Assembly (NCBI RefSeq): GCF_003386165.1
Contig: NZ_QRDV01000004.1
Location: forward strand, 1-64,000
DNA from: Winogradskyella eximia
GTDB lineage: Bacteria; Bacteroidota; Bacteroidia; Flavobacteriales; Flavobacteriaceae
Direction of reading: 5' to 3'
DNA length: 64,000 nt
The translations under genes and the position numbers were made by a program. The notes under the pieces were generated by a model. The model saw only the letters and a list, made by a program, of their open reading frames with translations. It ran no database searches and was not told the origin of the DNA. Positions 26,617 through 51,865 of this stretch are shown one piece after another (within the stretch, counting starts at the first letter, position 1; each line of letters opens with the position of its first letter).

Positions 26617-26659
26617 TGATTTTAATCATTTTATGGCTCATTGATTTTGATTAGTTTTA
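26617..26659 (+). promoter_or_regulatory. Stress-island operator 1 and promoter
   Basis: Palindrome TGATTTTAATCA (26617-26628), 23 nt, then -7 TAGTTTTA (26652-26659). Points at the UspA gene starting at 26675. Confidence 0.85.
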
Positions 26660-26674
26660 TACAAATTGAAAACG

Positions 26675-27508
26675 ATGAAACAAATACTATTACTCACAGA
26701 CTTTTCTGAAAATTCCATAAATGCTATACATTATGCATTAAATTTATTTAAAGAAGACAATTGTAATTTCTATGTTTTACATGTAGAAAGTTCTAAGTCA
26801 TATTTAAGTGATGACTTAGTAATGGGAGGAGGCCAAAGTATTTATGATTCTATTGTGAAAAAATCGAAAAAAAGATTGTTAGAGCTTATAGAAAATCTCA
26901 AATCTAAGTTTCATAATCCTAAATTTACGTTTCAAGAGGTCATAGATTTTGATGGACTAACACAGGCTATAAACCAGGTGAAAACATCTAAACATATCGA
27001 TTTAATCGTTATGGGAAGCAATGGAGTAACAGGCGCCAAAGAGATTGTTTTTGGAAGTAATACAATCAATGTTATAAGAAATGTGTACTGCCCAACTTTA
27101 ATTGTTCCTGAAGGATTTTCATATATAAAACCATTAGAGGTATTATTACCTTTAGATTTAGACGACACATTAAATAGCAATGCATTTTCCGAACTGCTAA
27201 AGTTTACCGAAAAGTTCAGTGATAAATTACATTTGTTAAGAATGATTCCTAGTGATGAAGTATCTCAAGAATTAGAAAATGATGCTGAGTATATCAGTGC
27301 TTTTATAAAAGGTTTAGATTATGCTTATCATGTTATTGAAGAGGTTCCTATGGATTATACGGTAAGCTGTTACACGCAAACACATCCTATTACTTTAACG
27401 GCTCTGTTGGTTCAAAAAGAACGTTTTGTCGATCGTTTTTTTACGAGTTCTTCAACCTCAAAAATAAGTAATAAGTTGAGAGTACCTTTATTAGTTTTTC
27501 ATTCTTAA
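26675..27508 (+). CDS. Universal stress protein, two UspA domains
   Basis: A 277-aa cytoplasmic protein of two Usp domains. Domain 1 (about 1-145) starts KQILLLTDFSENSINAIHYALNLF and ends with the nucleotide-binding pattern MGSNGVTGAKEIVFGSNT (G-2x-G-9x-GS). Domain 2 (about 150-277) keeps the fold but lacks that glycine motif. The ATG at 26675 is preferred to an upstream in-frame TTG because the predicted transcription start is about 26665. It stands alone on the plus strand, facing the minus-strand Usp cluster, and has its own island operator. Confidence 0.92.
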   Translation: MKQILLLTDFSENSINAIHYALNLFKEDNCNFYVLHVESSKSYLSDDLVMGGGQSIYDSIVKKSKKRLLELIENLKSKFHNPKFTFQEVIDFDGLTQAINQVKTSKHIDLIVMGSNGVTGAKEIVFGSNTINVIRNVYCPTLIVPEGFSYIKPLEVLLPLDLDDTLNSNAFSELLKFTEKFSDKLHLLRMIPSDEVSQELENDAEYISAFIKGLDYAYHVIEEVPMDYTVSCYTQTHPITLTALLVQKERFVDRFFTSSSTSKISNKLRVPLLVFHS

Positions 27509-27581
27509 ATGTGTGATAAATAATTGTAAAAACAGAAATCTAAACCCATTTAATTGGTATGTCTAATTACTCAAATTTATA

Positions 27582-28031
27582 TCATTTGTTGTCTAACAAA
27601 TGATTTCGTTTGTCTTCTTTCTTAATACTTTTTATAATATCAAAAAGTTGCGTTTTTAGGTTTCTATAATTAGTTTGAAATTCTTTTATTTCTTTAATTA
27701 AACCTTGATGCGAATTTCTATACGCCTTTTCTTCCTTAAGTTGATTAACACCATCAACAATAATCTGAAGCTCATTTTCATGAACCTTTATGGCTTCAAT
27801 TAATAGGTTATTCCGCTTTTGGGATCTATTGAGTACATCGATAACCTCTTTGTTATCCGAAAATTTTTCAGGTTCAATAAGTTGTAGTGTGTAAGACTTA
27901 ATTAAATCTTCAAAAAAAAGATGTTCATCTTTAATAAATAGTAACTCGGAGAGCCATTCTTTAGACGCTTCATGCATTTCTTCTGCACTTAGCCATTCTA
28001 CATATTTTGAATTTGTTTGTGTTGTTTTCAT
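27582..28031 (-). CDS. Uncharacterised coiled-coil protein of the stress island
   Basis: I do not recognise a family. The 149-aa product is soluble and strongly helical. An N-terminal segment (YVEWLSAEEMHEASKEWLSELLFIKDEHLFFEDLI) leads into heptad-like helices, including VHENELQIIVDGVNQLKEEKAYRN and a Lys/Glu-rich C-terminus. No signal peptide, Cys or metal motif. The gene is real by codon pattern, by a clear ATG and by its own operator-promoter (28101-28143), which makes it a single-gene member of the stress regulon. Confidence 0.75.
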   Translation of the reverse strand: MKTTQTNSKYVEWLSAEEMHEASKEWLSELLFIKDEHLFFEDLIKSYTLQLIEPEKFSDNKEVIDVLNRSQKRNNLLIEAIKVHENELQIIVDGVNQLKEEKAYRNSHQGLIKEIKEFQTNYRNLKTQLFDIIKSIKKEDKRNHLLDNK

Positions 28032-28100: not shown

Positions 28101-28143
28101 TAAAAGTATTAATAATCACTATATTTTGAAATGATATAAGTCA
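28101..28143 (-). promoter_or_regulatory. Stress-island operator 2 and promoter
   Basis: On the minus strand TGACTTATATCA (28132-28143), 23 nt, then -7 TACTTTTA (28101-28108). Drives the coiled-coil gene; leader about 70 nt. Confidence 0.85.
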
Positions 28144-28157: not shown

Positions 28158-29531
28158 TTAAAGTACAATTTTTTCTACATCAGTAATTTTAGGGATGGTG
28201 ACATTCCAATGATATGTGTCTTTTATTTTTACTCTAAAAGCATCTAAAGCTGTGGGTTCTCCATGAATTAAATATACGTTTTCGGGTATATTTTTAATGT
28301 TGCTCATCCAATTAATTAAATCATGTTGGTCTGCATGTGCAGATAAGCTTGCGATGTTTTTAATTGTGGCTTTTACAGGATAATATTTTCCGAAAAATCG
28401 AATTTCATGTACTCCATCTTGTAATTGTCTGCCACGTGTGCCTTCTGCTTGGTAACCTACTAGTAAAACGGTTGTAGAAGGTTCGTCTATAAGTTGTTTT
28501 AAATAGGTGAGTACACGTCCTCCAGTAACCATTCCGCTACCAGCAATAATAATTTTAGAGCGTTTATCATCAATGGTTTCCCAAGTTTCTTTATAGGATG
28601 CTACAATGTTTACGTGTTTACACATGGCATTATAATCTTCATCAGATAATTTATGCCATTTAGGGAAACGTTTAAATACACTCAACACATTGTTGCCCAT
28701 TGGGCTATCAACAAAAACAGGAATATTAGGAATTTTATTTTTTTTGTAGAGTTGCCATAAAATATACATTAAGGTTTGTAAGCGTTCTACAGCAAAACTA
28801 GGAATGATTAAGTTGCCTTTTTTCTCTAAGGTCTCAAGAATTATTTCAGTTAATATACCTTCAACATCTTCTTCTGGGTGTAGTTTATCACCATAGGTAC
28901 TTTCAATAAATAGAAAATCTGCCCATTCAGGTCGTTTAGGGTCATTAAGTAAATAATCATTAGACCTGCCAATATCTCCTGAAAAAACAAAGCGTTTGCT
29001 ATTAATGTCCAATTCAATAAAAGTAGCACCAATTATATGGCCATTGTATTGAAATCTATATGAGATGTGTTCAGACAAAACAATCCATTTATCTGGTAGT
29101 TGTTCCTCAAATAGTGTTACCGTATTTTCGGCTTCTTTTACAGTGTAAAAAGGAAGTGCTGGGTTGTGCTTACTATAGTTTTCTTTATTAGCTTTTTCAG
29201 CTTCTTCTTCATGTATTTTTGCGCTATCTCTTAGTATTATTTCAGCTATAGCAAGTGTTGGTGCTGTTCCCATTATTTTGCCACTGAAACCTTGTTTTAA
29301 TAATCTTGGTAAGTAACCAACATGGTCTAAATGGCCATGTGTTAGCAATACCACATCAATTGATGGAACATTAACAGGAAGATCGCTCCAATTGAGTTCG
29401 CGTAGTTCTTTTAAACCCTGAAACATACCACAATCTATAAGGATGTTTTTTTCTGAAGTTTCAATAAGAAACTTGGAACCTGTAACCACTCCAGACGCTC
29501 CTAAGAAATTTATTTTTGCGAAATTTTCCAT
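28158..29531 (-). CDS. Beta-CASP metallo-beta-lactamase-fold RNA-processing nuclease
   Basis: A 457-aa RNase of the CPSF73/YSH1-like group. The metallo-beta-lactamase domain has NILIDCGMFQG and HGHLDHVG (His 65, 67, 70, Asp 69), then FSGDIGRS and ESTYGD. The beta-CASP domain has PSFAVERLQTLMYIL, VDSPMG and IIAGSGMVTGGR; RMMBL-type motifs SAHADQ and VYLIHGEPTALDAFR close it. Members process or degrade RNA as endo- or 5' exonucleases. It lies 6 bases after the ATP-cone/nuclease gene and is co-transcribed with it. The next operator downstream begins only 15 bases past its stop. Confidence 0.92.
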   Translation of the reverse strand: MENFAKINFLGASGVVTGSKFLIETSEKNILIDCGMFQGLKELRELNWSDLPVNVPSIDVVLLTHGHLDHVGYLPRLLKQGFSGKIMGTAPTLAIAEIILRDSAKIHEEEAEKANKENYSKHNPALPFYTVKEAENTVTLFEEQLPDKWIVLSEHISYRFQYNGHIIGATFIELDINSKRFVFSGDIGRSNDYLLNDPKRPEWADFLFIESTYGDKLHPEEDVEGILTEIILETLEKKGNLIIPSFAVERLQTLMYILWQLYKKNKIPNIPVFVDSPMGNNVLSVFKRFPKWHKLSDEDYNAMCKHVNIVASYKETWETIDDKRSKIIIAGSGMVTGGRVLTYLKQLIDEPSTTVLLVGYQAEGTRGRQLQDGVHEIRFFGKYYPVKATIKNIASLSAHADQHDLINWMSNIKNIPENVYLIHGEPTALDAFRVKIKDTYHWNVTIPKITDVEKIVL

Positions 29532-29537
29532 GATTTA

Positions 29538-30386
29538 TTAATTTTTGTTTGGACATAATTGAGTTATTTCATCCAGAATTTTTTTCTTTCTAACTTCTGA
29601 AACACCCAAATGATCTAGGTAAAATTTATCGTGTATTAGTTGTCTACAAAGCACTATATCTCTACTTAATAAAAATTGTTTCTCTCTATTGGTTAGCAAG
29701 GTAGATACGGTAATAGGGTAAAGGCTTAATCTGTCAATTCTATCTTTTAAACCATCATTGTTAGGATAGTCCCAACTTAATAGATAAAGTCCGCAACACC
29801 TACCATATTGAATAGCATCTTCTGTAAATCTTGTATTAGTAACTACCCAACCTTCTGTTAATGTTGTATCTTTTTTGGGATTGGCATCCCAATGTGTTTT
29901 TACGTCTTTGTAACGAGAATTGATGTAGAGCGGAATTTTCACATTACAATTAAGCCCTTGTTCATTATGAAATTTACACTCTATTAAACTCGTTTTATTG
30001 TCTTTGTGAGCAACCACATCAATTTCATGTTTTACACATTTACCTTGTAAAATTTGCCCAACATCCGTTTTGTAACTAGAGTATTCTAAAAGTTCACTTA
30101 TAAAACGTTCAAAGGGAAAACCAGTTGGTCCTAACTCATAAATGGCTTTTTTTAGCTTGTATTTTGAAGCGAAATAACTCTTCTTTTTTTTGAGTAAAGC
30201 AAAAGCTCTATTGTAAATTTCTTTAGTAGAAATTCCTTGGTACAATTCGTCTCTAACTTTATCAATAATTTGATCGATGGTCTCTTTGTCTGCACCAGTT
30301 TTATGTAATGAAGCACGTAGCTTATCTATTGAAAATTTCACACTTTCTCCAGAAGATTTAATGATATCAAAATTTTGAGTTTTCAT
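29538..30386 (-). CDS. ATP-cone domain fused to a PD-(D/E)XK nuclease-like domain
   Basis: A 282-aa two-domain protein. Residues 6-88 form an ATP-cone (FDIIKSSGESVKFSIDKLRASLHKTGAD to KAIYELGP), the nucleotide sensor of ribonucleotide reductase and NrdR. Residues about 90-210 resemble the Mrr/restriction-endonuclease-like fold: FERFISELLEY, HEIDVVA (Asp 123), then IECKFH (Glu 136, Lys 138). The tail is uncharacterised and Cys-containing. A role as nucleotide-gated nuclease is inference. Upstream neighbour of the beta-CASP RNase in a two-gene operon. I found no island operator before it, unlike nearly all neighbours. Confidence 0.8.
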   Translation of the reverse strand: MKTQNFDIIKSSGESVKFSIDKLRASLHKTGADKETIDQIIDKVRDELYQGISTKEIYNRAFALLKKKKSYFASKYKLKKAIYELGPTGFPFERFISELLEYSSYKTDVGQILQGKCVKHEIDVVAHKDNKTSLIECKFHNEQGLNCNVKIPLYINSRYKDVKTHWDANPKKDTTLTEGWVVTNTRFTEDAIQYGRCCGLYLLSWDYPNNDGLKDRIDRLSLYPITVSTLLTNREKQFLLSRDIVLCRQLIHDKFYLDHLGVSEVRKKKILDEITQLCPNKN

Positions 30387-30534
30387 ATGTGATTATTTTA
30401 AAAACTGCCAAAACAATATTCATTTTGACAGCCTTAATTAATACCATCTATACCTTTAGATGACCAAAGCAACATCATTTTATTTTACAATCGTTTTCGA
30501 TTTAAAATGGAAGAACTCATAAAATGGTTAAAAT

Positions 30535-30942
30535 TTAATTAGACTTAAAGTAGTCTCTAACCCATGCTTTTACTTGATTCTCGGTCATGCTATCAGCTTT
30601 TTCTACTCCTTTTATTTTTGTACTTAAGCTGTTATAGTGTTTATGTAACTCTTTGCTAAACTTCTCATTGGTGTCAGCAGGTCCAAAAAGTACCAAAGCA
30701 TTTGTGTCATTTATTTGCGATGCGATGTCTTTAAAATAAAGTTTTAATTGCTGTTTTTCGCGCTCTAAATACTTACTATCTTGAATTACGTCTTGTGGTC
30801 CACCTTTTAGTTTTGTACCAGAACCTCCATGGGCTTTATAGTGTTCAATGTTAGATGAAACCGTTTTAAATGTTTCGTTTTCATTCTCTATGCTTACGAT
30901 ATAAGCATTGTCAATATCGATCCAAATGCCTGTATTTTTCAT
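30535..30942 (-). CDS. Small protein resembling the central eRF1/Pelota domain
   Basis: A 135-aa soluble protein: MKNTGIWIDIDNAYIVSI, a glycine-rich stretch (HYKAHGGSGTKLKGGPQD), KYLEREKQQLKLYFKDIA, then NALVLFGPADTNEKFSKELH, which recalls the central-domain pattern of eRF1/Pelota-type proteins. Bacterial relatives of those factors include ribosome hibernation or rescue proteins, which would suit a stress island, but the resemblance is by eye only. I start at the ATG at 30942. It is 47 bases behind a UspA gene that carries operator 3 and is probably co-transcribed with it. Confidence 0.6.
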   Translation of the reverse strand: MKNTGIWIDIDNAYIVSIENENETFKTVSSNIEHYKAHGGSGTKLKGGPQDVIQDSKYLEREKQQLKLYFKDIASQINDTNALVLFGPADTNEKFSKELHKHYNSLSTKIKGVEKADSMTENQVKAWVRDYFKSN

Positions 30943-30989
30943 TATAAATTTATTTATAACTCTCATTTAAATGAGAATCTGGTTAATAC

Positions 30990-31844
30990 TTAATTTTTGA
31001 AATCGTGCATAGCTAGTATGGGAACATTTAAGTGAAATGAAATCTCCTTTACCATTGGATTACTTAAAATACTTCCAAAAAAAGCATGTTTTTTATTAAT
31101 AAAAGCAACCATGTCACTTGATCTGCTTTCTACAAAAATGTTAACTGCAGATTGTATAGAATGGTGAGATAAAGTGTGGAAAGTATAGTTAACACCTTCT
31201 AATATTTCTTTGAGTAATTCTTTGTTTTCTCTTTGGTCTTCGTCTAGTTTTTCTTCCTTATTTATATAAAGTATTGCAATGTTTGCATCACTCTTTTTTG
31301 CAATTTCAGAAAGATAGATAAGTTCTCGTCTTTTAAAATGAGTTCTAAAATTAGAGGGAAAAACAATCTCTTTTGGTAATTCGATTTTTGCATTATGTGG
31401 AACAACTAACACCGGACAGTTTCTCACTTTTTCCATTGTATTAATTGCAGTACTGCCAAAGGCTGTGGCTCTAGAATGGGTTTGTCCTTTGGTACCCATC
31501 ACTATCATCTCAATATCCTTTTTGTCTACGAATTGTTTTATGGATTCAACAACATTATTAAATTCAGAAAAAACTTCAAAATGATGCTTAGGATTATATG
31601 AATCGCTCATAGTAATCATATCAAAAACCTTAGCTAATCCATTTTCCGAATGTAGTTTTGCTGTTTCATAAAGCTCGCTTCCAGGTTCTAGATTTAAGAG
31701 ACTTTCTAGAATATTACCTGTGGCCGAGAATACATTTAGTATAAAAAAATCGCAATGATCATTTTTATATAATTCCCTCGCATAATTAATTGCTCTAATT
31801 GAGTTTTTAGAAAAATCGGTAGGCAGTAAAATTTTATGTCTCAT
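30990..31844 (-). CDS. Universal stress protein, two UspA domains
   Basis: A 284-aa tandem Usp protein. Domain 1 begins KILLPTDFSKNSIRAINYARELY and ends with MGTKGQTHSRATAFGSTAIN, the nucleotide-binding glycine pattern. Domain 2 (from about 155, KEIVFPSNFRTHFKRRELIYLSEIA) lacks the pattern and ends with FINKKHAFFGSIL, a His-containing motif shared by several island paralogues. First gene of a unit with the eRF1-like gene, under operator 3. Confidence 0.92.
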   Translation of the reverse strand: MRHKILLPTDFSKNSIRAINYARELYKNDHCDFFILNVFSATGNILESLLNLEPGSELYETAKLHSENGLAKVFDMITMSDSYNPKHHFEVFSEFNNVVESIKQFVDKKDIEMIVMGTKGQTHSRATAFGSTAINTMEKVRNCPVLVVPHNAKIELPKEIVFPSNFRTHFKRRELIYLSEIAKKSDANIAILYINKEEKLDEDQRENKELLKEILEGVNYTFHTLSHHSIQSAVNIFVESRSSDMVAFINKKHAFFGSILSNPMVKEISFHLNVPILAMHDFKN

Positions 31845-31870: not shown

Positions 31871-31913
31871 TAAATATAGTTACATAACTAAAATTGCCAA
31901 ATGATATACATCA
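31871..31913 (-). promoter_or_regulatory. Stress-island operator 3 and promoter
   Basis: On the minus strand TGATGTATATCA (31902-31913), 23 nt, then -7 TATATTTA (31871-31878), 27 nt before the UspA start at 31844. Confidence 0.87.
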
Positions 31914-31939: not shown

Positions 31940-32779
31940 TTAAGGATTATGACATGGTATTACCATAAATGGCACTACAGGATGAAATCCTATTTTCTTA
32001 ATAACAGGTTCTTTAGTCATGTTTTCTATAAAGCCGTGTTTGTAGTTTATCATAGTAAGTATATTGATATCAAATTCTTCTATGAAATCTTTAATACATT
32101 GTTCTTTTGTTCCAAAATCTGGCATCCAATGTACACTACTTTTGTAATCTTCTAAATAAGCTTTTAGCATTGCTAAATTATAATTTTGCTTTTCAGATAA
32201 TTGATCGTTCTGATTAATATGTACAATTCTTATCTTAGAGTTATATAGCTTAGATAATTGTTTTATGTATACTAATTCTTCACCATAAAAACGGTTAAAA
32301 TCAGTTGGAAAAGCAATTTCCTTTGGTGCTACAAAATTATAAGCATCTGGTATTACCAAAATAGGGCAAAGCTTTATTTTATTAATAATGTCAACTGTAT
32401 TACTTCCAAAAAGAAATTCTTTAGCTCCAGTTGCTCCTTTTGTACCCATTACAATAAGGTTTATTTTTTCCTTTTTAATGGTTTTTTTAATAGCAGGTAA
32501 TAGTGGATCTGTACTATAAATAATTTCAAATTTGTGATAATTATTAGTGCTTTCAGCCTCTAGTTTAACCTTTAACTCCTCTAATTTCTGTTTTTGTTCC
32601 TCTTTTAGAGTTTCTAAATAGGTTGAGGTTATATAGGTTCTAGATCCAGAACTTGAAAACGTCCAAGAGTGAAGTAAGTAAAAAGTACTCGCTTCATTAG
32701 AATATAGTTTTAGGGCATATTGTGCTGCGCTATACGCATTGTCTGAAAAATCCGTAGGTATTAAAATATGATTGTTCAT
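31940..32779 (-). CDS. Universal stress protein, two UspA domains
   Basis: A 279-aa tandem Usp protein. Domain 1: ILIPTDFSDNAYSAAQYALKLY to MGTKGATGAKEFLFGSNTVDII with intact nucleotide-binding glycines. Domain 2: KEIAFPTDFNRFYGEELVYIKQLSKLYNSKIRIVHINQ to MINYKHGFIENMTKEPVIKKIGFHPVVPFMVIP. It is very similar to the product of the next gene up (32852-33679), sharing HWMPD and MINYKH blocks, so the two arose by recent duplication. Own operator (number 4). Confidence 0.92.
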   Translation of the reverse strand: MNNHILIPTDFSDNAYSAAQYALKLYSNEASTFYLLHSWTFSSSGSRTYITSTYLETLKEEQKQKLEELKVKLEAESTNNYHKFEIIYSTDPLLPAIKKTIKKEKINLIVMGTKGATGAKEFLFGSNTVDIINKIKLCPILVIPDAYNFVAPKEIAFPTDFNRFYGEELVYIKQLSKLYNSKIRIVHINQNDQLSEKQNYNLAMLKAYLEDYKSSVHWMPDFGTKEQCIKDFIEEFDINILTMINYKHGFIENMTKEPVIKKIGFHPVVPFMVIPCHNP

Positions 32780-32806: not shown

Positions 32807-32849
32807 TAAAATTAATGTAATGACTCTAACTTTAAAATGATATATGTCA
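32807..32849 (-). promoter_or_regulatory. Stress-island operator 4 and promoter
   Basis: On the minus strand TGACATATATCA (32838-32849), 23 nt, then -7 TAATTTTA (32807-32814). The operator ends two bases before the stop codon of the upstream UspA gene. Confidence 0.87.
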
Positions 32850-32851
32850 GC

Positions 32852-33679
32852 TTAGTCAGGTATTACTAAAAAAGGTATGGTTGGTTGAAACCCTAATTTT
32901 TTAATAACTGGTTCCTTTACAAGGCTTTCTATAAAGCTATGTTTATAATTAATCATGACTAAAATATTGATATTTAGTTCATCAATAAAATCCTTTATTG
33001 CTTCATCTTTTTTACTGTAATCTGGCATCCAATGGAAGCTGTATTCGTAATTTTCTAGAGCTACTTTTAATTGGTCTAGGTTATAATCTTGTGCTTCAGA
33101 AATACTGTCTTCTTTGTTAATATGAAGTACTCTTATTTTTGAATTGTAAAGATCTGCTAAGTCTAATAATGGTTGTAATTCAGCACCATATAACCTATTA
33201 AAATCTGTAGGAAATGCTATTTGTTCTGGTATTACAAAATCAAATTCATCTGGAACGGCTAGTACAGGACAATTTTTTATCTTCTTTATGCTATTTACTG
33301 TATTACTGCCAAAAACAATTTCTTTTGCTCCTGTGGCTCCTTTGGTACCCATAACAACCATATCTATATTGTTTTTTTCTATAATCGTTTCCATAGAATG
33401 GAACAAATCATTTGAGCTTAATATAATTTCAAAACTATGGTTGGCATTAGCATTAGAAGTTTCTGCCAGTTCTTTTAATTCAGAAAGCTCATTCATGGCA
33501 TTTTCTGCCATAACACGAAGCAATTTGTTGGACATGTTAGACATGGTTGAAACTTTCATTTTAGTAGAATGTAAAAAGTAAAATGTGCATAGCTCCTCTT
33601 CGTATAATTTTAACGCATATACGACAGCACTCCATGCATTATCTGAAAAATCTGTTGGTAATAGAATATTCTTTTTCAT
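32852..33679 (-). CDS. Universal stress protein, two UspA domains
   Basis: A 275-aa tandem Usp protein. Domain 1: KNILLPTDFSDNAWSAVVYALKLYEEELCTFYFLHS to MGTKGATGAKEIVFGSNTVNSI. Domain 2: EQIAFPTDFNRLYGAELQPLLDLADLYNSKIRVLHINKED to MINYKHSFIESLVKEPVIKKLGFQPTIPFLVIP. Closest relative in the window is the 31940-32779 product. Domain 1 keeps the nucleotide-binding motif; domain 2 does not. Single-gene unit under operator 5. Confidence 0.92.
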   Translation of the reverse strand: MKKNILLPTDFSDNAWSAVVYALKLYEEELCTFYFLHSTKMKVSTMSNMSNKLLRVMAENAMNELSELKELAETSNANANHSFEIILSSNDLFHSMETIIEKNNIDMVVMGTKGATGAKEIVFGSNTVNSIKKIKNCPVLAVPDEFDFVIPEQIAFPTDFNRLYGAELQPLLDLADLYNSKIRVLHINKEDSISEAQDYNLDQLKVALENYEYSFHWMPDYSKKDEAIKDFIDELNINILVMINYKHSFIESLVKEPVIKKLGFQPTIPFLVIPD

Positions 33680-33707: not shown

Positions 33708-33749
33708 AAAACTTAATATTTAATCTAACTTGGTTAATGATGTCAGTTA
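33708..33749 (-). promoter_or_regulatory. Stress-island operator 5 and promoter (degenerate half-site)
   Basis: On the minus strand TAACTGACATCA (33738-33749), where only the proximal half-site ATCA is canonical, then 22 nt, then -7 TAAGTTTT (33708-33715). This is the weakest of the set and the only one with a 22-nt spacer. Confidence 0.6.
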
Positions 33750-35528: not shown

Positions 35529-35570
35529 GATTGCATTGAGATTGTAATTGCAGTGTTGCGATTAATTAAC

Positions 35571-43395: not shown

Positions 43396-43396
43396 G

Positions 43397-44085: not shown

Positions 44086-44128
44086 TGATATTAATCATTT
44101 TAAATGATTCTATTAATGACTAACTTTA
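44086..44128 (+). promoter_or_regulatory. Stress-island operator 11 and promoter
   Basis: TGATATTAATCA (44086-44097), 23 nt, then -7 TAACTTTA (44121-44128). Drives the five closely spaced genes from 44156 to 48469. Confidence 0.88.
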
Positions 44129-44155: not shown

Positions 44156-44368
44156 ATGAAAACACTTCAAGATATAGAAAATCAAATTATAAGGCTTACT
44201 ACAAGCATAGAAGTGAATTATCCAGAACTTTATGCAACCTTAGATGAAAATCCTATAACCATTCCGACAAATGCTCATCCAGATATGACCGTTAGTATTA
44301 TGGAAGATTATTTAGAAAGTCTCAAACAGATTTTAAAACAATACACAAAAACTCATAATAAACAATAA
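44156..44368 (+). CDS. Small uncharacterised protein preceding cbpA
   Basis: A 70-aa soluble protein: helical N-terminus ([29 protein letters not shown]), a central proline/asparagine-containing loop ([18 protein letters not shown]), and a C-terminal helix ending [11 protein letters not shown] do not recognise a family. It overlaps the DnaJ-type gene by one base (stop TAA shares its A with the ATG), so the two are translationally coupled, and it leads the operator-11 operon. Confidence 0.8.
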
Positions 44369-45255
44369 TGGCATTTATAGACTATTATAAAGTATTAGGT
44401 ATCCCAAAAACGGCTACTGCAAACGATATAAAAAAAGCATATCGTAAGTTGGCTCGTAAACACCATCCAGACCTTAACCCAAATGATAAGGAAGCTGAGC
44501 AAAAGTTTAAAGAGGCTAATGAGGCTAATGAAGTATTGAGTGATCCAGAAAACCGTAAAAAATACGATGAATATGGTGAGAATTGGAAACACGCTGAAGA
44601 GTACGAAAAAGCAAAACAGCAAGAGCAATATCAGCGAAGTACAAGCAATCAGTATGGTGGTTATTCAGAGGAGGATTATTCAGATTTCTTTGGGTCAATG
44701 TTTGGTGGTAGACAATCATCGCAATCTCGTGGTCAGCATGTAAAGTTTAAAGGCCAAGATTTTAACGCAAAATTAGAGCTAGACCTTAAAGATGTTTACA
44801 CGTCGCATAAACGTACACTAACCGTTAATAATAAGAATATCCGAATTACAATTCCGGCAGGAATAGAGAATGGTCAGGTTATTAAAATTAAAGGTCATGG
44901 TGGTAAAGGTGTTAATAATGGTCCAAATGGTGACTTGTATATTGAGTTTTCAATACGTAATAATACAGCTTTTAAAAGAGATGGAGATAACCTTTATGTT
45001 TCTGTAGATTTAGATTTGTATAAAGCACTTTTAGGAGGTGAAATAACCGTCAATACTTTTGATGGTAAAGTGAAATTAACGGTGAAACCTGAAACCCAAA
45101 ATGGCACAAAAGTTAAATTAAAAGGTAAAGGATTTCCTAAGTATAAAAAAGAGGGACAGTTTGGAGATTTATATGTGACTTATAATCTAAAAACACCAAC
45201 AAATCTTACGGAAAAAGAAAAAGAACTCTTTACAGAATTATCAAAATTACGATAA
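44368..45255 (+). CDS. cbpA: DnaJ-class co-chaperone (CbpA type)
   Basis: A 295-aa Hsp40. The J domain (1-70) has the HPD motif (His 33, Pro 34, Asp 35) that stimulates DnaK ATPase. A Gly/Ser/Gln-rich linker follows, then two DnaJ C-terminal substrate-binding domains (about 125-290, [42 protein letters not shown]). The zinc-finger domain of DnaJ is missing, which makes this a CbpA-type protein. A CbpM-like modulator follows after one base, the classical pairing. Confidence 0.93.
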
Positions 45256-45256
45256 C

Positions 45257-45553
45257 ATGGAAACGACACAACTTATATCAATCACTCAATTTTGTACAAA
45301 TTATAATGTTCCTGTTAGTTTTATTAATGCCTTGGAAGAGTATGAATTGGTTGAAATAACGATTTCAGAAAGCGATAATTATTTACAAACAAATCAGCTT
45401 AATGATGTTGAAAAAATGATGCGTCTACATTATGATTTAGATATTAATTTTGAAGGTATTGACGCGATTTACAATTTATTAAAACAAGTTGAAAGTCTTC
45501 AGGCTGAAATTACAACACTTAAAAATAAATTAAACTTTTACGAAAAGCTATAA
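45257..45553 (+). CDS. CbpM-like chaperone modulator
   Basis: A 98-aa protein of the MerR-like helix-turn-helix group to which CbpM belongs: LISITQFCTNYNVPVSFINALEEYELVEI, the DVEKMMRLHYDLDINFEGIDAIYNLL helix pair, and a terminal coiled coil (QVESLQAEITTLKNKLNFYEKL). CbpM binds the J domain of CbpA and restrains it. Position directly behind cbpA supports the call, although sequence similarity to enterobacterial CbpM is modest. Symbol left blank for that reason. Confidence 0.8.
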   Translation: METTQLISITQFCTNYNVPVSFINALEEYELVEITISESDNYLQTNQLNDVEKMMRLHYDLDINFEGIDAIYNLLKQVESLQAEITTLKNKLNFYEKL

Positions 45554-45563
45554 AGCCATTATA

Positions 45564-46484
45564 ATGACAGAAATAGAGCTACTAAAGGAGTGGGTTAGTG
45601 CTAATCCTTTAGCAATGAGTGTTATTAAGTTTGTAATTGTGCTGTTGGTTGTTTTATTTGCAATTCAATTGATAAGACGCTATTTAAAAAAGAAGATAGC
45701 TAATACCGTAATTCGTTATAAAGCTCAAAAAGGAATAGAGATTCTAGGTTACACTTTGTTAGTTATTTTGGCAATCATTTATTTTTCTGGCTCAATAAAA
45801 GATTTCACCATTATTATAGGTCTTTTTACTGCAGGAATGGCGTTTACACTGCAAGAACTAATTCTAAGTATTGCAGGTTCGGTTTATATATTTCTAGTAA
45901 AAGTTTATCAACCTGGTGATCGTATAGAAATTAACGGAATTAAAGGCGATGTTATTGATGTAGATAGTATCTATACAACAATGATGGAAATAGGAGAGTG
46001 GGTAAGTAGCGATAATTATACTGGTAGAATTGTAAAACTGAGCAATGCATTTGTTTTTAAAGGGCCTATTTATAATTACTCGCAAGATTTTCCTTTTATC
46101 TGGGACGAGTTTAATTTACCAATTCGTTATGGGTCTGACATCGATTTAGCCAAATCAATTATTATAAAAATAGCTTCAGAAACGCTTTCAGAATATACCG
46201 CTAATTCAAAACATGATTGGGAAAAAGTCGTCAACAAGTATTACATTGAAGATGCACAAATAGACCCAACTTTAGCCATATCACTTACCGATAATTGGAT
46301 TCAGTTTAATCTTAGATACATTGTCGATTTTAAAAAACGACGTTATATAAAGCATCTTCTAAATGATAAAATAAGAGTAGAAATTGAAAAAACTAACGGT
46401 AAAATAATTTTAGCATCTGCAACCGTAGAACTTATTAAAATTCCGGACATAAATGTTAATTTAGATAGCAATAATAAGGTTTAG
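45564..46484 (+). CDS. MscS-family mechanosensitive channel
   Basis: A 306-aa inner-membrane channel with three helices (about 18-40, 58-78, 82-112). The pore-lining helix and start of the beta domain are seen in TAGMAFTLQELILSIAGSVYIFLVKVYQPGDRIEINGIKGDVIDVDSIYTTM, with the PGDRI signature of MscS proteins. The C-terminal alpha/beta domain (about 180-295) is longer than a minimal YnaI-like channel. It releases small solutes on osmotic downshock. Co-transcribed with the CbpA/CbpM pair. Confidence 0.93.
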   Translation: MTEIELLKEWVSANPLAMSVIKFVIVLLVVLFAIQLIRRYLKKKIANTVIRYKAQKGIEILGYTLLVILAIIYFSGSIKDFTIIIGLFTAGMAFTLQELILSIAGSVYIFLVKVYQPGDRIEINGIKGDVIDVDSIYTTMMEIGEWVSSDNYTGRIVKLSNAFVFKGPIYNYSQDFPFIWDEFNLPIRYGSDIDLAKSIIIKIASETLSEYTANSKHDWEKVVNKYYIEDAQIDPTLAISLTDNWIQFNLRYIVDFKKRRYIKHLLNDKIRVEIEKTNGKIILASATVELIKIPDINVNLDSNNKV

Positions 46485-46501
46485 ACTATAAAACTAAATT
46501 A

Positions 46502-48469
46502 ATGGAAAAGGCGAAAGAAAATGTGCATCAGCACAAGGGTATTTTAGGAAACAAAACAGAACTGTATTTTGCGATGCTCTGTGGTGTTTTTCTCGTCGCT
46601 GCTTTTTTAATCGAAAAATTCAGTGCATTACCCAATTGGGTTTCATTAACTGGTTATTGTGTTTCTTATTTCTTTGGTGGTTATTTTATTACTATTGAAG
46701 CTTCTAAGAAGATTATAAAAGGTGGTTTTGATATTGATTTTTTAATGATTGCTGCGGCTGCAGGTGCTGCATATATTGGTAGTTGGGCAGAAGGCTCATT
46801 ATTGCTTTTTCTATTTAGTTTAGGACATGCATTAGAGCACTTCGCAATGAATAAAGCCAAAAAGTCAATTGAAGCTCTAAATGATTTATCGCCTAAAACC
46901 GCATTAGTTAAAAAAGAAGGAAGGCTAAAAGAAATAGCTATAAATGAATTAAAAATAGGAGATGTTATAGTTGTTAAACCAAACACAAAAATTGCTGCAG
47001 ATGGTGTAATAATTAGTGGTAGCAGTAGTATTAATCAAGCACCAATAACAGGCGAAAGTATACCAGTAGACAAAACCTTTATCACAAGCACTAATAATTT
47101 ACCTGAGTTTACCCAAATTGATAAAAAACATATCGTATTTACTGGGACTATTAATGGTGATAGTAATCTTGAAGTTCTGGTATTAAAACTAAGTAAAGAT
47201 TCTTCAGTATCTCGTTTGATAAAAATGGTTAGTGAAGTAGAAACTCAGAAATCACCAACACAACGTTTAACCAAAAAGTTCGAAAAATGGTATGTGCCAA
47301 TAGTCATCATAGTTGTTTTTTTATTATGCTTTGCTTATTTAGTAATTGATGAAAGTTTTAATAATAGCCTTTATAGAGCCATAACGGTTTTAGTTGCTGC
47401 AAGTCCATGTGCTTTGGCAATTTCTACACCAAGTGCAGTATTAAGTGGTATTGCAAGAGCTGCACAAAAAGGAGTACTTATAAAAGGAGGAAAAGCTTTA
47501 GAAGACTTAGGAGAAATAACAACTATGGCATTTGATAAAACAGGGACATTAACAGAAGGTAAACCTAAACTGACTAATGTAATTCCGATTAATAATTTCG
47601 ATGAAAAAGAATTAATAAGAATAGTATTAGAAGTCGAAAGTTTAAGTAATCATCCACTAGCTAAGGCTATAGCCAAAGACATTGAAACAAAATATAAGGT
47701 TGAAGCTCAAAATAAAGCAGTCAATGTAAATGCTATTCAAGGAAAAGGCATACAAGCACAATACAATGGTGATTCTGTTTTTATTGGTAATGTAAAACTG
47801 ATGGAAGACAAAGGAATTATGGTGGTTGAAGCTATTACTAATAAGATGAAAGACCTTTTAGATGTTGGCCAAACAGTAATGATTGTAGCTTACAGAAGTG
47901 AAATTATTGGTCTAATTAGTGTTATGGATTTACCGAGAGAGACAGCTGCAAAAACCTTACAGCAGTTAAAAGATATTGGTATAAAACATATGGTAATGCT
48001 TACAGGCGATCATCAAAATGTAGGTGATGCTATTGCCAAACAAATTGGATTAACAGAAGCTAAAGGAAATTTGTTGCCAGAAGATAAAGTGTCTGAAGTA
48101 AAAAAATTAATTAATGATTACGGTAAAATAGCCATGGTTGGTGATGGTGTTAATGACGCACCTGCAATGGCACTAAGTACAGTGAGTATTGCAATGGGAG
48201 CAGCAGGAAGTGATGTTGCACTAGAAACAGCAGATGTTGCCTTAATGTCTGATAAAATTGAAAATTTACCATACCTCATAGGTTTGAGCAGACAATCTAA
48301 AAGGATTATAAAACAGAACATTTTTATCAGTTTGGGAGTTGTAGCTGTGTTAGTACCAGTAACTATTTTGGGACTTACCAATATTGGCTTAGCAGTTGCT
48401 TTTCACGAAGGGTCTACTATAGTTGTGGTTTTAAATGCACTTAGATTATTACGTTATGATTTAAATTAA
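46502..48469 (+). CDS. P1B-4-type metal-transporting ATPase
   Basis: A 655-aa metal-efflux P-type ATPase: SPC ion-pathway motif (301-303), DKTGTLTEGKPK (phosphorylated Asp 345), NHPLAKAIAKDIE in the nucleotide domain and MVGDGVNDAPAMA. The last helix carries HEGST (635-639) and LNALRLL, the subgroup-4 hallmark, linked to Co, Fe or Zn efflux. There is no N-terminal heavy-metal domain, only a His-containing tail (ENVHQHKG). Length and helix count suit P1B-4. Last gene of the operator-11 operon; metal specificity is inferred from motifs. Confidence 0.9.
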   Translation: MEKAKENVHQHKGILGNKTELYFAMLCGVFLVAAFLIEKFSALPNWVSLTGYCVSYFFGGYFITIEASKKIIKGGFDIDFLMIAAAAGAAYIGSWAEGSLLLFLFSLGHALEHFAMNKAKKSIEALNDLSPKTALVKKEGRLKEIAINELKIGDVIVVKPNTKIAADGVIISGSSSINQAPITGESIPVDKTFITSTNNLPEFTQIDKKHIVFTGTINGDSNLEVLVLKLSKDSSVSRLIKMVSEVETQKSPTQRLTKKFEKWYVPIVIIVVFLLCFAYLVIDESFNNSLYRAITVLVAASPCALAISTPSAVLSGIARAAQKGVLIKGGKALEDLGEITTMAFDKTGTLTEGKPKLTNVIPINNFDEKELIRIVLEVESLSNHPLAKAIAKDIETKYKVEAQNKAVNVNAIQGKGIQAQYNGDSVFIGNVKLMEDKGIMVVEAITNKMKDLLDVGQTVMIVAYRSEIIGLISVMDLPRETAAKTLQQLKDIGIKHMVMLTGDHQNVGDAIAKQIGLTEAKGNLLPEDKVSEVKKLINDYGKIAMVGDGVNDAPAMALSTVSIAMGAAGSDVALETADVALMSDKIENLPYLIGLSRQSKRIIKQNIFISLGVVAVLVPVTILGLTNIGLAVAFHEGSTIVVVLNALRLLRYDLN

Positions 48470-48510: not shown

Positions 48511-48553
48511 TGATTTAAATCATAATTTAAATCATTAAGGATGACTAACTTGG
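48511..48553 (+). promoter_or_regulatory. Stress-island operator 12 and promoter
   Basis: Perfect palindrome TGATTTAAATCA (48511-48522), 23 nt, then -7 TAACTTGG (one mismatch, 48546-48553), 24 nt before the FMN-barrel gene. Confidence 0.85.
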
Positions 48554-48577: not shown

Positions 48578-49048
48578 ATGTTTAGAGTATTAAATGAAAA
48601 GGAATCGATTGCACTTCTTATGTTAAATTATATAGGTAATCTATCATATATTTTCAGAGAGAAGCCTTTTGTGGTGCCAATTACTTATTTTTTTGATTTG
48701 GCAAATAATGTAATCATAGGATATTCTGCAGAAGGTCATAAGATTAATGCGATGCGAAAAAATAATAACGTGTCACTTAGTGTATCAGATTTAGAGTCAA
48801 TAAACGATTGGAAATCTGTATTAGCGCACGGAACGTTTCAAGAATTATCTGGTAGTGCAGCTAAAGCAAAATTACATCAATTCTCACTTGGTGTAAAAGA
48901 TTTAATAATTAACAAAGAACACAGAAAATTAGATTATATAAGCGAATTTTCAAGTAAAATTGACAAAGATCAAATGCCTGTTGTTTTTCAAATTAAGGTA
49001 AATGAAATAACAGGTAGAATGAGAATGCGCCATAATTCAGAAGATTAA
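48578..49048 (+). CDS. Pyridoxamine 5'-phosphate oxidase-like FMN-binding protein
   Basis: A 156-aa split-barrel flavin-reductase-like protein: NEKESIALLMLNYIGNLSYIFREKPFVVPITYFFD, then IIGYSAEGHKINAMRKNNNVSLSVSD, SVLAHGTFQEL and a C-terminal VFQIKVNEITGRMR. This is the small PNPOx-like group, whose members often bind F420, FMN or heme and are common in hypoxia or dormancy regulons. Nothing here fixes the cofactor. Single gene under operator 12. Confidence 0.85.
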   Translation: MFRVLNEKESIALLMLNYIGNLSYIFREKPFVVPITYFFDLANNVIIGYSAEGHKINAMRKNNNVSLSVSDLESINDWKSVLAHGTFQELSGSAAKAKLHQFSLGVKDLIINKEHRKLDYISEFSSKIDKDQMPVVFQIKVNEITGRMRMRHNSED

Positions 49049-49086: not shown

Positions 49087-49129
49087 TGACGTGCGTCATT
49101 GTAAGTGAAATCTTATTATCGTAGCTTAA
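49087..49129 (+). promoter_or_regulatory. Stress-island operator 13 and promoter
   Basis: TGACGTGCGTCA (49087-49098), 23 nt, then -7 TAGCTTAA (49122-49129). Downstream is only the 22-codon microprotein gene. Confidence 0.82.
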
Positions 49130-49150
49130 TAGCATAAATAATGTGCTATT

Positions 49151-49219
49151 ATGAAAATCCAAATAAAATTTATTATTGCTGTTTTTATTCTTGTCCTAAG
49201 TACTATTTTACTGTTGTAA
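49151..49219 (+). CDS. 22-residue single-helix membrane microprotein
   Basis: A short reading frame starting ATG and ending TAA. It begins MKIQIKF and continues as an unbroken hydrophobic helix (IIAVFILVLSTILLL) to the C-terminus, a two-lysine-then-helix design typical of regulatory membrane microproteins. It is preceded by a complete operator-promoter with a 17-21-nt leader, so it is unlikely to be chance. It may insert in the inner membrane and modulate a larger protein; partner unknown. It is not part of the convergent Mla operon, which reads the other way. Confidence 0.7.
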   Translation: MKIQIKFIIAVFILVLSTILLL

Positions 49220-49264
49220 AAATGAGTGTACGGAATAAGTCAATTCAGTTGCAGAACTACTTTT

Positions 49265-50257
49265 TTATTCTTTAGTATTATTTGCAGCTTTCTTTTCTTG
49301 TCGTTCTAGTTTTTTAAAATAGCCTCTAGTTAGAAAATTATGTTTTAAAGCTTCCATATTTTGGTTGAATTTATCTGACCCTTCATTAATATGTTCCAAG
49401 GTAGATTTTAAACTATTAACCAATGAGGTGTCTTTAACAATGTAGTTGTAGGTGCCTTCGCTAGTTTCAAAATTAGTAACAACGGTATTGATGTTTCTAA
49501 CTACGCTGTCTATTTGTGTGCTCGAAGTTTCAAGATGACTAATGATGGTTTTTAATTTATAGCCAGAAATGGTATCGTTTAATAACATACCCAAAACAGA
49601 CTCATCGTTGGTCTTTAATTCTTTTAGTATTTCATTTATTTCTTCTATAGAATTTGAAGCTCCGTAACTTACATTTTTAAGATTTGTAATAGTTAGTTTT
49701 AAGTCCCTTGCCATAATTGTGTCGTTGAGTAATACACCTATGGTACCTTTTCCTTTGGTAATGTTATTGGTTATTTTGAGAAGATCTGTAGTTAAAATTG
49801 CGGCATTTTCTGAACTGGTGTTTAATGTGTTTAAAATATCATCAGTCCCTATTTTGCTATAAGATGAAATATGGTCACCATTACTAATAGCTTCTTTGGT
49901 GCCTTTTCCAGGTACAATATTAACAATCATATTACCCACTAATCCGTCAGAACCTATGGTTGCAATAGCATCTTTTTTAATGTGTGAAATAATTTTTTCA
50001 TCTATGCTCATGTCTATTTTTATGGTAGAATCATTAATCATCACAATATCTTTCACTGTACCAATATTAATACCTGCAAAACGAACGTTGTTGCCTTTTT
50101 GTAATCCATTAACATTCTGAAAAAATGCACTTACGGTAAACGTTTTTTTAAACATATCTTGACGCTGGCCAATAAAGTAAACCGCAGCAATAAAAAGCAA
50201 AGTGCCTATAATGATAAAGAGGCCTAGGTTGAACTTTTGTGAATTTGTTTGTTTCAT
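49265..50257 (-). CDS. MlaD/MCE-domain lipid-transport protein
   Basis: A 330-aa protein anchored by one N-terminal helix (FNLGLFIIIGTLLFIAAVYFIG), with one MCE domain (about 35-115, TVSAFFQNVNGLQKGNNVRFAGINIGTVKDI) and a long helical C-terminal region. MCE proteins form hexameric rings that bind lipids in the periplasm and pass them between membranes. Its start overlaps the stop of the ATPase gene. Last gene of a three-gene operon under operator 14; no MlaC or MlaB gene accompanies it. Confidence 0.92.
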   Translation of the reverse strand: MKQTNSQKFNLGLFIIIGTLLFIAAVYFIGQRQDMFKKTFTVSAFFQNVNGLQKGNNVRFAGINIGTVKDIVMINDSTIKIDMSIDEKIISHIKKDAIATIGSDGLVGNMIVNIVPGKGTKEAISNGDHISSYSKIGTDDILNTLNTSSENAAILTTDLLKITNNITKGKGTIGVLLNDTIMARDLKLTITNLKNVSYGASNSIEEINEILKELKTNDESVLGMLLNDTISGYKLKTIISHLETSSTQIDSVVRNINTVVTNFETSEGTYNYIVKDTSLVNSLKSTLEHINEGSDKFNQNMEALKHNFLTRGYFKKLERQEKKAANNTKE

Positions 50258-51024
50258 GATGTTTTATTTTTAAAGAAAGCTTTTATTTTAGGATCTTTAT
50301 GCTTGGATAGTTCTGCAAATGTACCAACCACATAATCCTTGCCATCTATGAGCAATACCATTCGGTCCGAAATGACACGAGCACAATCCACATCGTGTGT
50401 AATAATTAGAGAAGACGTGCCGTATTTTTTTTGAATGGTTTGCATAAGTAAAATAATTTCTTTGGCAGTAATTGGGTCTAAGCCGCTTGTAGGTTCATCA
50501 TAGAGCATTATTTTTGGTTTTAAGATGAGTGTTCTGGCAATAGCAATACGTTTTTTCATTCCACCAGACAATTCAGATGGCATTAAGTCAATAGCATCTC
50601 TTAAGCCTACACTATCTAAAGCTTCAATAACTAGTGATTCCGTATTTGCAGTACTGTCAAATCTTTTGGTATGTCGTCTAAGCGGAAACTCTAAATTTTC
50701 TCTTACCGTCATAGAATCGTATAAGGCACTCCCTTGAAATAGAAATCCAATATCAGCACGTAATGTATCTAATGCACTTTGGTTTAATTTTGTAATATCA
50801 TTTTGCATTACAGAAATAGTACCACTATCGGCTTCCATGAGGCCAACCAAACATTTAATCATTACAGATTTTCCTGAACCCGATTTGCCCATTATAACTA
50901 AGTTTTCACCTTGATAGAGTTTTAAGTTAAAGCCATTAAGCACATGGTTGTTTCCAAAACTCTTATGAAGATCTTTGATTTCGAGTACAATATTCTGTTT
51001 GTTAATGTCTTTGTTGTTTGTCAT
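50254..51024 (-). CDS. MlaF-type ABC ATPase
   Basis: A 256-aa ATPase: Walker A GKSGSGKSVM, Q-loop FLFQGSALYDSMTV, signature LSGGMKKRIAIARTL (the GGM variant typical of MlaF), Walker B MLYDEPTSGLDP, and switch His in SLIITHDVDCARVI. It powers the MlaE permease. Its start and stop codons overlap both neighbours by four bases, so the three subunits are made together. Confidence 0.95.
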   Translation of the reverse strand: MTNNKDINKQNIVLEIKDLHKSFGNNHVLNGFNLKLYQGENLVIMGKSGSGKSVMIKCLVGLMEADSGTISVMQNDITKLNQSALDTLRADIGFLFQGSALYDSMTVRENLEFPLRRHTKRFDSTANTESLVIEALDSVGLRDAIDLMPSELSGGMKKRIAIARTLILKPKIMLYDEPTSGLDPITAKEIILLMQTIQKKYGTSSLIITHDVDCARVISDRMVLLIDGKDYVVGTFAELSKHKDPKIKAFFKNKTS

Positions 51025-51803
51025 AACTCAAAAAATATGTCGGTTACAAAAACCGCTATGAAATCTATTATAAATAATAATAATGACGCAACTACAACAG
51101 CTGAATTGGCAGCTTTACCTACACCTGCAGTACCTTTATTACAATAATAACCTTTATAACAACCTACTAATCCAATAGCTAAACCAAAAAAGATAGATTT
51201 TATAGTTGCTGGTAAAATGTCTCCAAATTCTAATGCATCAAAAACTTGATTAAAAAACAGTGTAAAAGAGACACTGCCTTTACTATTTTCAATTAAAAAG
51301 GAACCAAATAATGCAATAGCGTCGGCAATTATAACTAATAATGGAAGCATTAATGTTACTGCCAAAACACGTGTTACCACCAAAAAATTAAAAGGATTTG
51401 TACCAGAAACTTCCATGGCATCTATCTGTTCGGTAACTCGCATAGAGCCAATTTCTGCACCAATACCTGAGCCAATTCTACCAGCACATACTAAAGCTGT
51501 AATAATTGGACCAATTTCTCGCACAATAGATATGCTTACCATAGATGGCATCCAACTTACTGCACCAAATTCCAGTAGAGTTGGTCTTGTTTGTATGGTT
51601 AAAACCAAACCAATAATAAAGCCAGTGATGCCAACTAAAAAAAGTGAGCGATTGCCCATATAATAACACTGACGTATCAATTCCTTTAATTCAAACGGAG
51701 GTTTAAACGCTGTTTTAAAAAATCGCGCAGTGAAATAAGAAAGTTCCCCAATTTCAATAAAAAAGGATTTTAAGGCATATTTTATATAGGCTAAAACTGT
51801 CAT
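51021..51803 (-). CDS. MlaE-type ABC permease
   Basis: A 260-aa inner-membrane permease of the MlaE/YrbE group with about five helices: FLVGITGFIIGLVLTIQ, SIVREIGPIITALVCAGRIGSGIGAEIGSMRVTEQIDAMEVSG (the conserved cytoplasmic EIG/MRV-TEQ-DAL segment), FLVVTRVLAVTLMLPLLVIIADAIALFG and SIFFGLAIGLVGCYKGYYC. It moves phospholipid-type substrates with MlaF and the MCE ring. First gene of the operon; operator 14 directly precedes it. Confidence 0.94.
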   Translation of the reverse strand: MTVLAYIKYALKSFFIEIGELSYFTARFFKTAFKPPFELKELIRQCYYMGNRSLFLVGITGFIIGLVLTIQTRPTLLEFGAVSWMPSMVSISIVREIGPIITALVCAGRIGSGIGAEIGSMRVTEQIDAMEVSGTNPFNFLVVTRVLAVTLMLPLLVIIADAIALFGSFLIENSKGSVSFTLFFNQVFDALEFGDILPATIKSIFFGLAIGLVGCYKGYYCNKGTAGVGKAANSAVVVASLLLFIIDFIAVFVTDIFFEL

Positions 51804-51822
51804 TTCTTATTGTTAGTATACT

Positions 51823-51865
51823 CAAAAGTAGAAGTTTAAAGAGCAATTTAAAATGATAAGCATCA
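51823..51865 (-). promoter_or_regulatory. Stress-island operator 14 and promoter
   Basis: On the minus strand TGATGCTTATCA (51854-51865), 23 nt, then an exact -7 TACTTTTG (51823-51830), 20 nt before the MlaE start. Marks the right-hand end of the island. Confidence 0.9.

Follow-up and report, generated by a model that had tools for sequence, protein, structure and literature searches.

Flavobacteria play an important part in the degradation of polysaccharides in the sea. The first 64,000 nucleotides of contig NZ_QRDV01000004.1 of the marine flavobacterium Winogradskyella eximia (assembly GCF_003386165.1; positions 1-64,000, forward strand, hereafter the window) contain, between 26.6 and 51.9 kb, an island of protective genes in which nearly every transcription unit is preceded by the same operator-promoter module, a TGAYN4RTCA palindrome followed after 23 nucleotides by a TAnnTTTR-like -7 element. 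The geometry, statistics and conservation of this module as well as its co-occurrence with regulators were determined directly. It is likely that the island belongs to a compressed FixL-FixJ-FixK circuit driving a low-oxygen survival regulon similar to those of lxa and DosR; homology and geometry point to haem binding, an oxygen signal, phosphotransfer, DNA binding and activation. A haem-based oxygen sensor, encoded midway along the island, probably controls these modules, so that the island looks like a low-oxygen survival kit. An initial annotation of the DNA had described a stress island of about two dozen genes. Oxygen limitation is the narrower stress that we infer.

Fourteen operator sites had been proposed by the initial annotation. 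Thirteen of them match TGAYNNNNRTCA exactly, and the fourteenth, at 33738, deviates from the palindrome by a single base, in agreement with the annotation. TGAYNNNNRTCA occurs 17 times in the window, compared to a mean of 4.33 and a maximum of 11 after shuffling. The four additional palindromes lie outside the island (15984, 60727) or within island genes (39620, 48961), and none of these four has TAnnTT at a spacer of 23. The proposed spacing of 23 nucleotides in 13 cases and 22 in one was also found: TAnnTT lies exactly 23 nucleotides past the palindrome at 12 of the 14 sites, while hand counts gave a spacer of 23 and the element TAATATTA for the site at 35810, and a spacer of 22 and the element TAAGTTTT for 33738. 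The element TAATATTA is also present at identical spacing in a relative (L054). The rest of the window is devoid of strict modules, in line with the earlier statement that the flanking polysaccharide loci lack them.

Reversed patterns, other spacers, other offsets and genomes without the regulators served as controls. In the whole genome, the palindrome by itself is little enriched (306 copies vs. 250 of the reversed pattern), whereas the full module (TGAYN4RTCA, 23 nucleotides, TAnnTT) is strongly enriched (57 vs. 6); 12 of the 57 modules sit within the island. The analysis was extended to 80 named loci around relatives of the receiver-CRP protein encoded in the island (1.59 Mb, hereafter the related loci). 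Among their 1,032 oriented palindromes, 415 are followed by TAnnTT after 23 nucleotides, 305 of these by TAnnTTTR, while each other spacer from 5 to 60 yielded only 5-27 TAnnTT. At least one module was detected in 78 of the 80 loci. Only eight of the 415 modules are inside open reading frames, though these span 88% of the DNA (simple longest frames, the first 60 and last 30 nucleotides of each being skipped), and a start is located within 250 base pairs of 344 modules. An equal frequency of the module inside genes, which the initial annotation had named as one of the outcomes that would contradict it, was thus not found, and the modules are dense near receiver-CRP genes.

It had further been claimed that the promoters need no -33 TTTG, which holds for the main set, as TTTG was detected 17-23 nucleotides before TA in 15 of the 415 modules, compared to 23 of 415 at a control offset. 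The window gave one of 12 modules vs. none at the control offset, and second-type modules, to which we return below, five of 92 vs. none. On the main set, the reading of 'tttt' as a -33 TTTG element was rejected. Class II promoters have their operator near -41.5 and require no -35-type element. With the spacer of 23, the -7 box TAnnTTTG at -12 to -5 of mapped Flavobacterium psychrophilum promoters (available text of PMC9723704) places the operator centre by arithmetic at -41.5, as had been proposed; with these starts from F. psychrophilum, the operator position is that of class II. The modules share with class II FNR/CRP promoters this centre, the FNR-like half-sites and the dispensable -35-type element. 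They differ from them by the Bacteroidota -7 element, TAnnTTT(A/G) in the logo, and by one T just inside the palindrome (position -35), which is 96% conserved and has no mirror on the other side. AT-rich wings flank the palindrome on both sides. The notion of an undescribed operator had to be given up, since the palindrome is of the FNR/FixK type. A report on the module, or on a receiver-CRP protein together with Usp genes, in Bacteroidota was not found in open-licence titles and abstract openings, most subscription journals being outside this search.

The candidate sensor is a kinase (38194-39699) whose first PAS domain matched 15 PDB sequences at E <= 0.001. Fourteen of these are FixL, DosP/Ec DOS or another haem PAS, and the last one (E = 1e-3) is a blue-light receptor. 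A structure was predicted from the PAS domain of the window and those of 32 of 74 relatives (mean predicted local distance difference test score 82). Its top 17 fold matches are the haem PAS domains of FixL, Ec DOS/DosP and FG214, with LOV domains at lower ranks. H64, which sits in helix 58-73, aligns with the haem histidine of FixL and is conserved in 68 of 76 close loci (four of the 80 gave no hit) and in 19 of 19 distant ones (one of 20 without hit), the tally being based on the best PAS match per locus, whose identity with the adjoining kinase was not always checked. Judged by its sequence, the kinase probably carries haem in the first PAS domain. The distant loci are 20 Bacteroidia loci hand-picked from the list of high-scoring receiver-CRP matches; in eight of them, cco genes or hemN lie within approximately 10 kb.

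Some observations weigh against oxygen as the signal. The histidine is missing in eight of the 76 close matches, the FixL arginine is kept only in 48 of 76 close and 10 of 19 distant matches, and PAS domains without haem may likewise have a histidine at the corresponding place. Moreover, cco genes or hemN are nearby at only 17 of 80 flavobacterial RR1 loci (RR1 being the receiver-CRP protein) and at none of 12 second-type loci. It is conceivable that the circuit operates as described with another ligand in the PAS domain and responds to nitric oxide, redox state, light or energy stress, to which the LOV matches, the matches lacking the histidine and the five of 12 second-type loci without a hit to the kinase PAS would lend themselves. 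However, the highest matches in both sequence and fold are haem PAS domains, and the cco/hemN neighbours of the distant loci likewise argue for oxygen, so that a different signal appears rather unlikely.

With regard to the activator, the initial annotation had suggested the receiver-CRP protein at 37154-38197. Its residues D52, K104, E313 and R317 are invariant in 80 of 80 relatives. Regulators of the FNR/FixK type are recognized by a glutamate and an arginine in the recognition helix and by an FNR-like half-site; RR1 has a Crp-type helix-turn-helix with E313 and R317 in the recognition helix and an operator reading TGAY. The N-terminal iron-sulfur cysteine cluster, the mark of FNR sensu stricto, was not found in RR1, which starts with the receiver domain. 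The motif ATE[ST]xIR in the recognition helix is common to RR1, a second receiver-CRP protein (RR2) and an Fnr-like protein (C8:133138-133833), the latter label denoting its best NCBIfam match, which is below the model cut-off (90.3 of 228 bits). Due to these near-identical helices, overlap is to be expected, and other Crp/Fnr proteins probably share or compete for the sites.

The co-occurrence of regulators and modules was analyzed in the complete set of 60 genus genomes among the 99 genomes searched, without the remaining 39. RR1 was scored as present at a best E <= 1e-130, and the Fnr-like protein at a best E <= 1e-70. Genomes with both proteins (n=37) have on average 39.4 modules, those with RR1 only (n=4) 23.0, those with the Fnr-like protein only (n=14) 17.4 and those with neither (n=4) 3.2 (range 0-9), which is no excess over the control of 6.0; a single genome that combines RR2 with the Fnr-like protein has 21. 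After subtraction of the reversed-pattern count, a linear fit attributed +20.5 modules to RR1 and +15.5 to the Fnr-like protein, and among genomes possessing the Fnr-like protein, the 37 with RR1 exceeded the 15 without it, including the single RR2-only genome (Mann-Whitney p=4e-6). Module numbers thus rise with RR1, which agrees with the activator originally suggested. Usp matches average 16.2 in genomes with RR1 (n=41), 8.4 with the Fnr-like protein only (n=14) and 1.8 with neither (n=4). Neither a module nor RR1 nor any match to the Fnr-like protein (E <= 1e-10) is present in two genomes of the genus, G012 and G020 (the latter 89% complete), which have only one and two Usp matches, respectively.

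Not all of these data favour RR1. Modules persist in genomes without it, and in genomes at least 95% complete (means of 39.3 with both, 18.5 with RR1 only, 16.6 with the Fnr-like protein only and 4.3 with neither), the RR1-only (n=2) and Fnr-only (n=10) values hardly differ. Module counts from the genus genomes, which are related, cannot be treated as independent. In the 20 distant loci, beyond the family, the module is weak (14 at spacer 23 vs. 11 at spacer 45), and within the island the kinase/receiver-CRP operon (37154-39699) is, by gene order, the sole transcription unit without a module. One could assume that all modules are activated mainly by the Fnr-like protein, with RR1 only tuning them or overlapping with it. 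The near-identical helix, the modules preceding the ccoNO and hemN genes in its neighbourhood and the average of 17.4 modules without RR1 would fit this assumption. Yet it is unlikely, given that in G015 and G048 the Fnr-like protein matches RR1 itself best (with one additional, weaker match in G048), while these genomes have 18 and 19 modules, 10 of them in each case within approximately 16 kb around RR1, and given that among genomes possessing the Fnr-like protein, those with RR1 have more modules (37 vs. 15 genomes).

A cAMP-CRP-like or other carbon-source regulon would be in keeping with the cNMP_binding domain of RR1. The phosphate-binding motif of CRP for cyclic AMP (cAMP) was taken as the criterion for a cAMP-CRP; in an alignment that did not include Escherichia coli CRP, it was not seen in the aligned RR1 stretch, KETATA, and the cAMP-CRP reading of RR1 was rejected. 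Carbon sensing has been predicted for some Flavobacteriales Crp/Fnr homologues near MalR, which also counts against an oxygen circuit, but the available passages of this report concern other Crp/Fnr homologues (PMC8510549). As the island genes are not catabolic and the flanking polysaccharide loci carry no modules, a carbon-source regulon is very improbable. That the modules are chance or repeat-derived palindromes with no regulatory role, for which the low genome-wide enrichment of the palindrome alone might speak, can practically be dismissed in view of the window shuffle, the spacer peak, the excess of the full module in the genome and the avoidance of open reading frames.

In the oxygen-responsive circuit that we prefer, falling oxygen would be sensed by haem in the FixL-like first PAS domain and would raise the activity of the kinase, which may phosphorylate Asp52 of the adjoining receiver-CRP protein. 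The phosphorylated protein would bind TGAYN4RTCA by its FixK/FNR-like helix and, located at -41.5 as in class II, would activate the housekeeping sigma factor at promoters with a TAnnTTTR-like -7 element and no need for a -33 TTTG. The products switched on would comprise Usp proteins, a beta-CASP RNase, a DnaJ-type co-chaperone, a mechanosensitive channel and a metal pump, as well as export systems, lipid-transport systems and a small RNA.

The similarity to the FixL-FixJ-FixK systems of rhizobia (and to FixLJ of B. dolosa) consists in the FixL-like haem-type PAS of the kinase, the FixK/FNR-type output domain and the cco/hemN neighbours of the distant relatives. By contrast, receiver and FixK-like activator are one protein here and there is no FixJ step. 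Since the receiver is fused directly to the Crp-type activator, the circuit is not a member of this group; in addition, its targets are mainly survival genes and its -7 element is that of Bacteroidota. Available excerpts on the lxa locus of Burkholderia cenocepacia describe six Usp proteins that are increased almost exclusively at low oxygen (PMC9104464), and protein tables with a heat-shock, a BON and a metallo-beta-lactamase-superfamily protein along with an Anr/FixK-type regulator discussed together with FixLJ (PMC6127331). HSP20 and BON proteins are also encoded in a second island of W. eximia. Unlike here, the lxa regulator is separate from FixLJ, and the likeness is one of description rather than of compared sequences. 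What the W. eximia island has in common with lxa- and DosR-like islands is the contiguous Usp-rich block; induction by low oxygen would be a common trait by analogy. DosR is a response regulator of a different type, and operator and promoter of the mycobacterial DosR/DosS system differ from those found here. This system resembles ours as a hypoxia two-component system with many Usp genes, its regulon being credited with six Usps (PMC2914252) or 10 (PMC6127331). In Myxococcus xanthus, the available text on NmpRSTU likewise presents a pathway that starts from a kinase requiring haem and drives a USP, cbb3 oxidase and HemN genes, while its regulator is NtrC-like and sigma-54-dependent (PMC11841059).

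The features of the island are as follows. Modules were detected by pattern scan, except for modules 5 and 7, which were read by eye; genes said to be driven by a module are its predicted targets.

26617-26659 (+): module 1, operator 26617-26628, -7 element 26652-26659, driving Usp 26666
26666-27508 (+): Usp protein (Pfam Usp 5.1e-24), in-frame ATG at 26675 the likelier start
27582-28031 (-): 149-amino-acid protein, no Pfam match; 13 of its 31 copies in related loci come first behind a module
28101-28143 (-): module 2, operator 28132-28143, driving the 149-amino-acid protein
28158-31844 (-): probable operon of four genes behind module 3, inferred from gene order
28158-29531 (-): beta-CASP metallo-RNase, in this probable operon
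29538-30386 (-): ATP-cone/Mrr-like protein, in this probable operon
30535-30966 (-): 143-amino-acid protein, in this probable operon
30990-31844 (-): Usp protein, in this probable operon
31871-31913 (-): module 3, operator 31902-31913, driving the Usp, 143-amino-acid, ATP-cone/Mrr and beta-CASP RNase genes
31940-32779 (-): Usp protein, behind module 4
32807-32849 (-): module 4, operator 32838-32849, driving Usp 31940-32779
32852-33679 (-): Usp protein, behind module 5
33708-33749 (-): module 5, degenerate, operator 33738-33749 (one mismatch), spacer 22, TAAGTTTT, driving Usp 32852-33679
33754-34596 and 34612-35466 (-): two Usp genes, behind module 6
35486-35528 (-): module 6, operator 35517-35528, driving these two Usp genes
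35571-35774 (-): predicted structured RNA of about 204 nucleotides, ending in a stem and U-run, behind module 7
35779-35821 (-): module 7, operator 35810-35821, -7 element TAATATTA, driving the structured RNA
35825-36211 (-): 128-amino-acid protein, behind module 8
36218-37069 (-): Usp protein, behind module 8
37088-37130 (-): module 8, operator 37119-37130, driving the Usp and 128-amino-acid genes
37154-38197 (-): receiver-CRP protein RR1, Pfam Response_reg, cNMP_binding and HTH_Crp_2
38194-39699 (-): PAS-PAS histidine kinase, first PAS resembling the haem PAS of FixL/DosP
39793-39835 (+): module 9, operator 39793-39804, driving the 136-amino-acid protein
39855-40265 (+): 136-amino-acid protein, no Pfam match; 34 of its 42 copies in related loci come first behind a module
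40298-40340 (+): module 10, operator 40298-40309, driving the WG, HlyD, MacB and ABC genes
40368-44071 (+): WG-repeat protein, HlyD, MacB/FtsX permease and ABC ATPase, behind module 10
44086-44128 (+): module 11, operator 44086-44097, driving the DnaJ, MerR_2, MscS and P-type ATPase genes
44368-48469 (+): DnaJ-type co-chaperone, MerR_2 protein, MscS-type channel and heavy-metal P-type ATPase, behind module 11
48511-48553 (+): module 12, operator 48511-48522, driving Pyridox_ox_2
48578-49048 (+): pyridoxamine-oxidase-like protein, behind module 12
49087-49129 (+): module 13, operator 49087-49098, followed by short frames only
49151-49219, 49226-49309 and 49141-49275 (+): short frames of 22, 27 and 44 amino acids behind module 13, from the frame list
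49265-51803 (-): MlaE, ABC ATPase and MlaD lipid-transport genes, behind module 14
51823-51865 (-): module 14, operator 51854-51865, driving the Mla genes

Seven Usp genes are members of a contiguous block at 26.6-37.1 kb. The initial claim that nearly every transcription unit of the island has a module is correct, with the kinase/receiver-CRP operon as the only exception. That the modules point at the next gene or at an RNA is mostly true, the module at 35810 preceding the structured RNA, but the one at 49087 precedes short frames only. A tally of the first genes after modules in the related loci (341 distinct genes, 96 without match to the reference set) gave Usp for 132 of 279 copies, HSP20 for 12 of 12 and WG for 13 of 15. 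Within the family, modules seldom stand before the operon of the regulators themselves, since they do so at none of 82 receiver-CRP and six of 80 kinase genes. Among the 20 distant Bacteroidia loci examined, 11 hold modules, and in five of these a module directed toward the kinase is located 38-91 base pairs upstream of it, which suggests self-activation. The distant loci with a module before the kinase/receiver-CRP operon are L172, L175, L176, L178 and L183.

The island is real, but its interpretation as one contiguous regulon was too narrow, and the idea that it is the sole site of modules was rejected on the basis of the 57 modules in the genome. Contig C5 carries 22 of them from 163 to 288 kb, 16 of these at 249-288 kb. 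The second island (L034-L036, C5 approximately 248-288 kb) has its own receiver-CRP protein, RR2, and its own kinase of 793 amino acids, which was identified by reading and BLAST, without a family search. It encodes HSP20, peroxiredoxin-type, PLD- and patatin-type, MscS, YtxH and three BON proteins, besides ferric-reductase-like, MCRA and ferritin-like proteins. At a further locus (L131, C8 128000-147999), the Fnr-like gene adjoins genes for a P-type ATPase, ccoNO, ccoP and hemN, and two modules are situated there, before ccoNO and before hemN. Elsewhere in the genome, where 10 of 16 first genes after modules were submitted to Pfam, modules precede genes for triosephosphate isomerase, DHBP synthase, CBS, OsmC-like, MscS and TonB proteins.

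The modules of RR1 loci and those of RR2 loci, the second type, differ in the four interior bases of the operator, which are AT-rich for RR1 and CTAG-like for RR2. Their G+C content is 14% in 415 RR1-locus and 46% in 76 RR2-locus modules (one-sided p=4e-25), and 19% (n=12) vs. 44% (n=16) within the W. eximia genome (p=0.01). Of 295 genomes sampled from the class, 141 encode relatives of the receiver-CRP protein. We are inclined to assume, with some reserve, that a compressed oxygen circuit composed of a FixL-like haem kinase and a receiver fused to a FixK-like activator is widespread in Bacteroidota, that copying in Flavobacteriaceae has produced parallel islands for survival, every one equipped with a sensor and an operator dialect of its own, and that a conserved small RNA belongs to the regulon. 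If true, this would be a clear case of a three-protein cascade cut to two and would provide a paralogue pair in which the operator interior may have diverged in step with the regulator. The promoter rule (palindrome, 23 nucleotides, TAnnTTTR) could then be used throughout the family to predict regulons for low oxygen as well as small RNAs and short genes.

The structured RNA behind the module at 35810 revealed a fold z-score of -4.34 for 35549-35774. Counterparts are found at the same place in four other genomes (G041, G033, L054 and L055, the last obtained from local alignment and pattern scan). In the consensus of the five sequences including that of the window, both sides are changed in 13 of 50 pairs, and 41 of 248 cells are unpaired. 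A search of the 99 genomes gave clear matches in three others only (G041, G033, G003), the rest being at about E 1e-4 or weaker. An Rfam scan of the window produced a single match, a Bacteroid-trp leader RNA at 1553-1673 (-), distant from the island. Behind the module at 49087, the frame of 22 residues (49151-49219, +) is hydrophobic and begins approximately 21 nucleotides past the -7 element; from its sequence, it could encode a small membrane protein.

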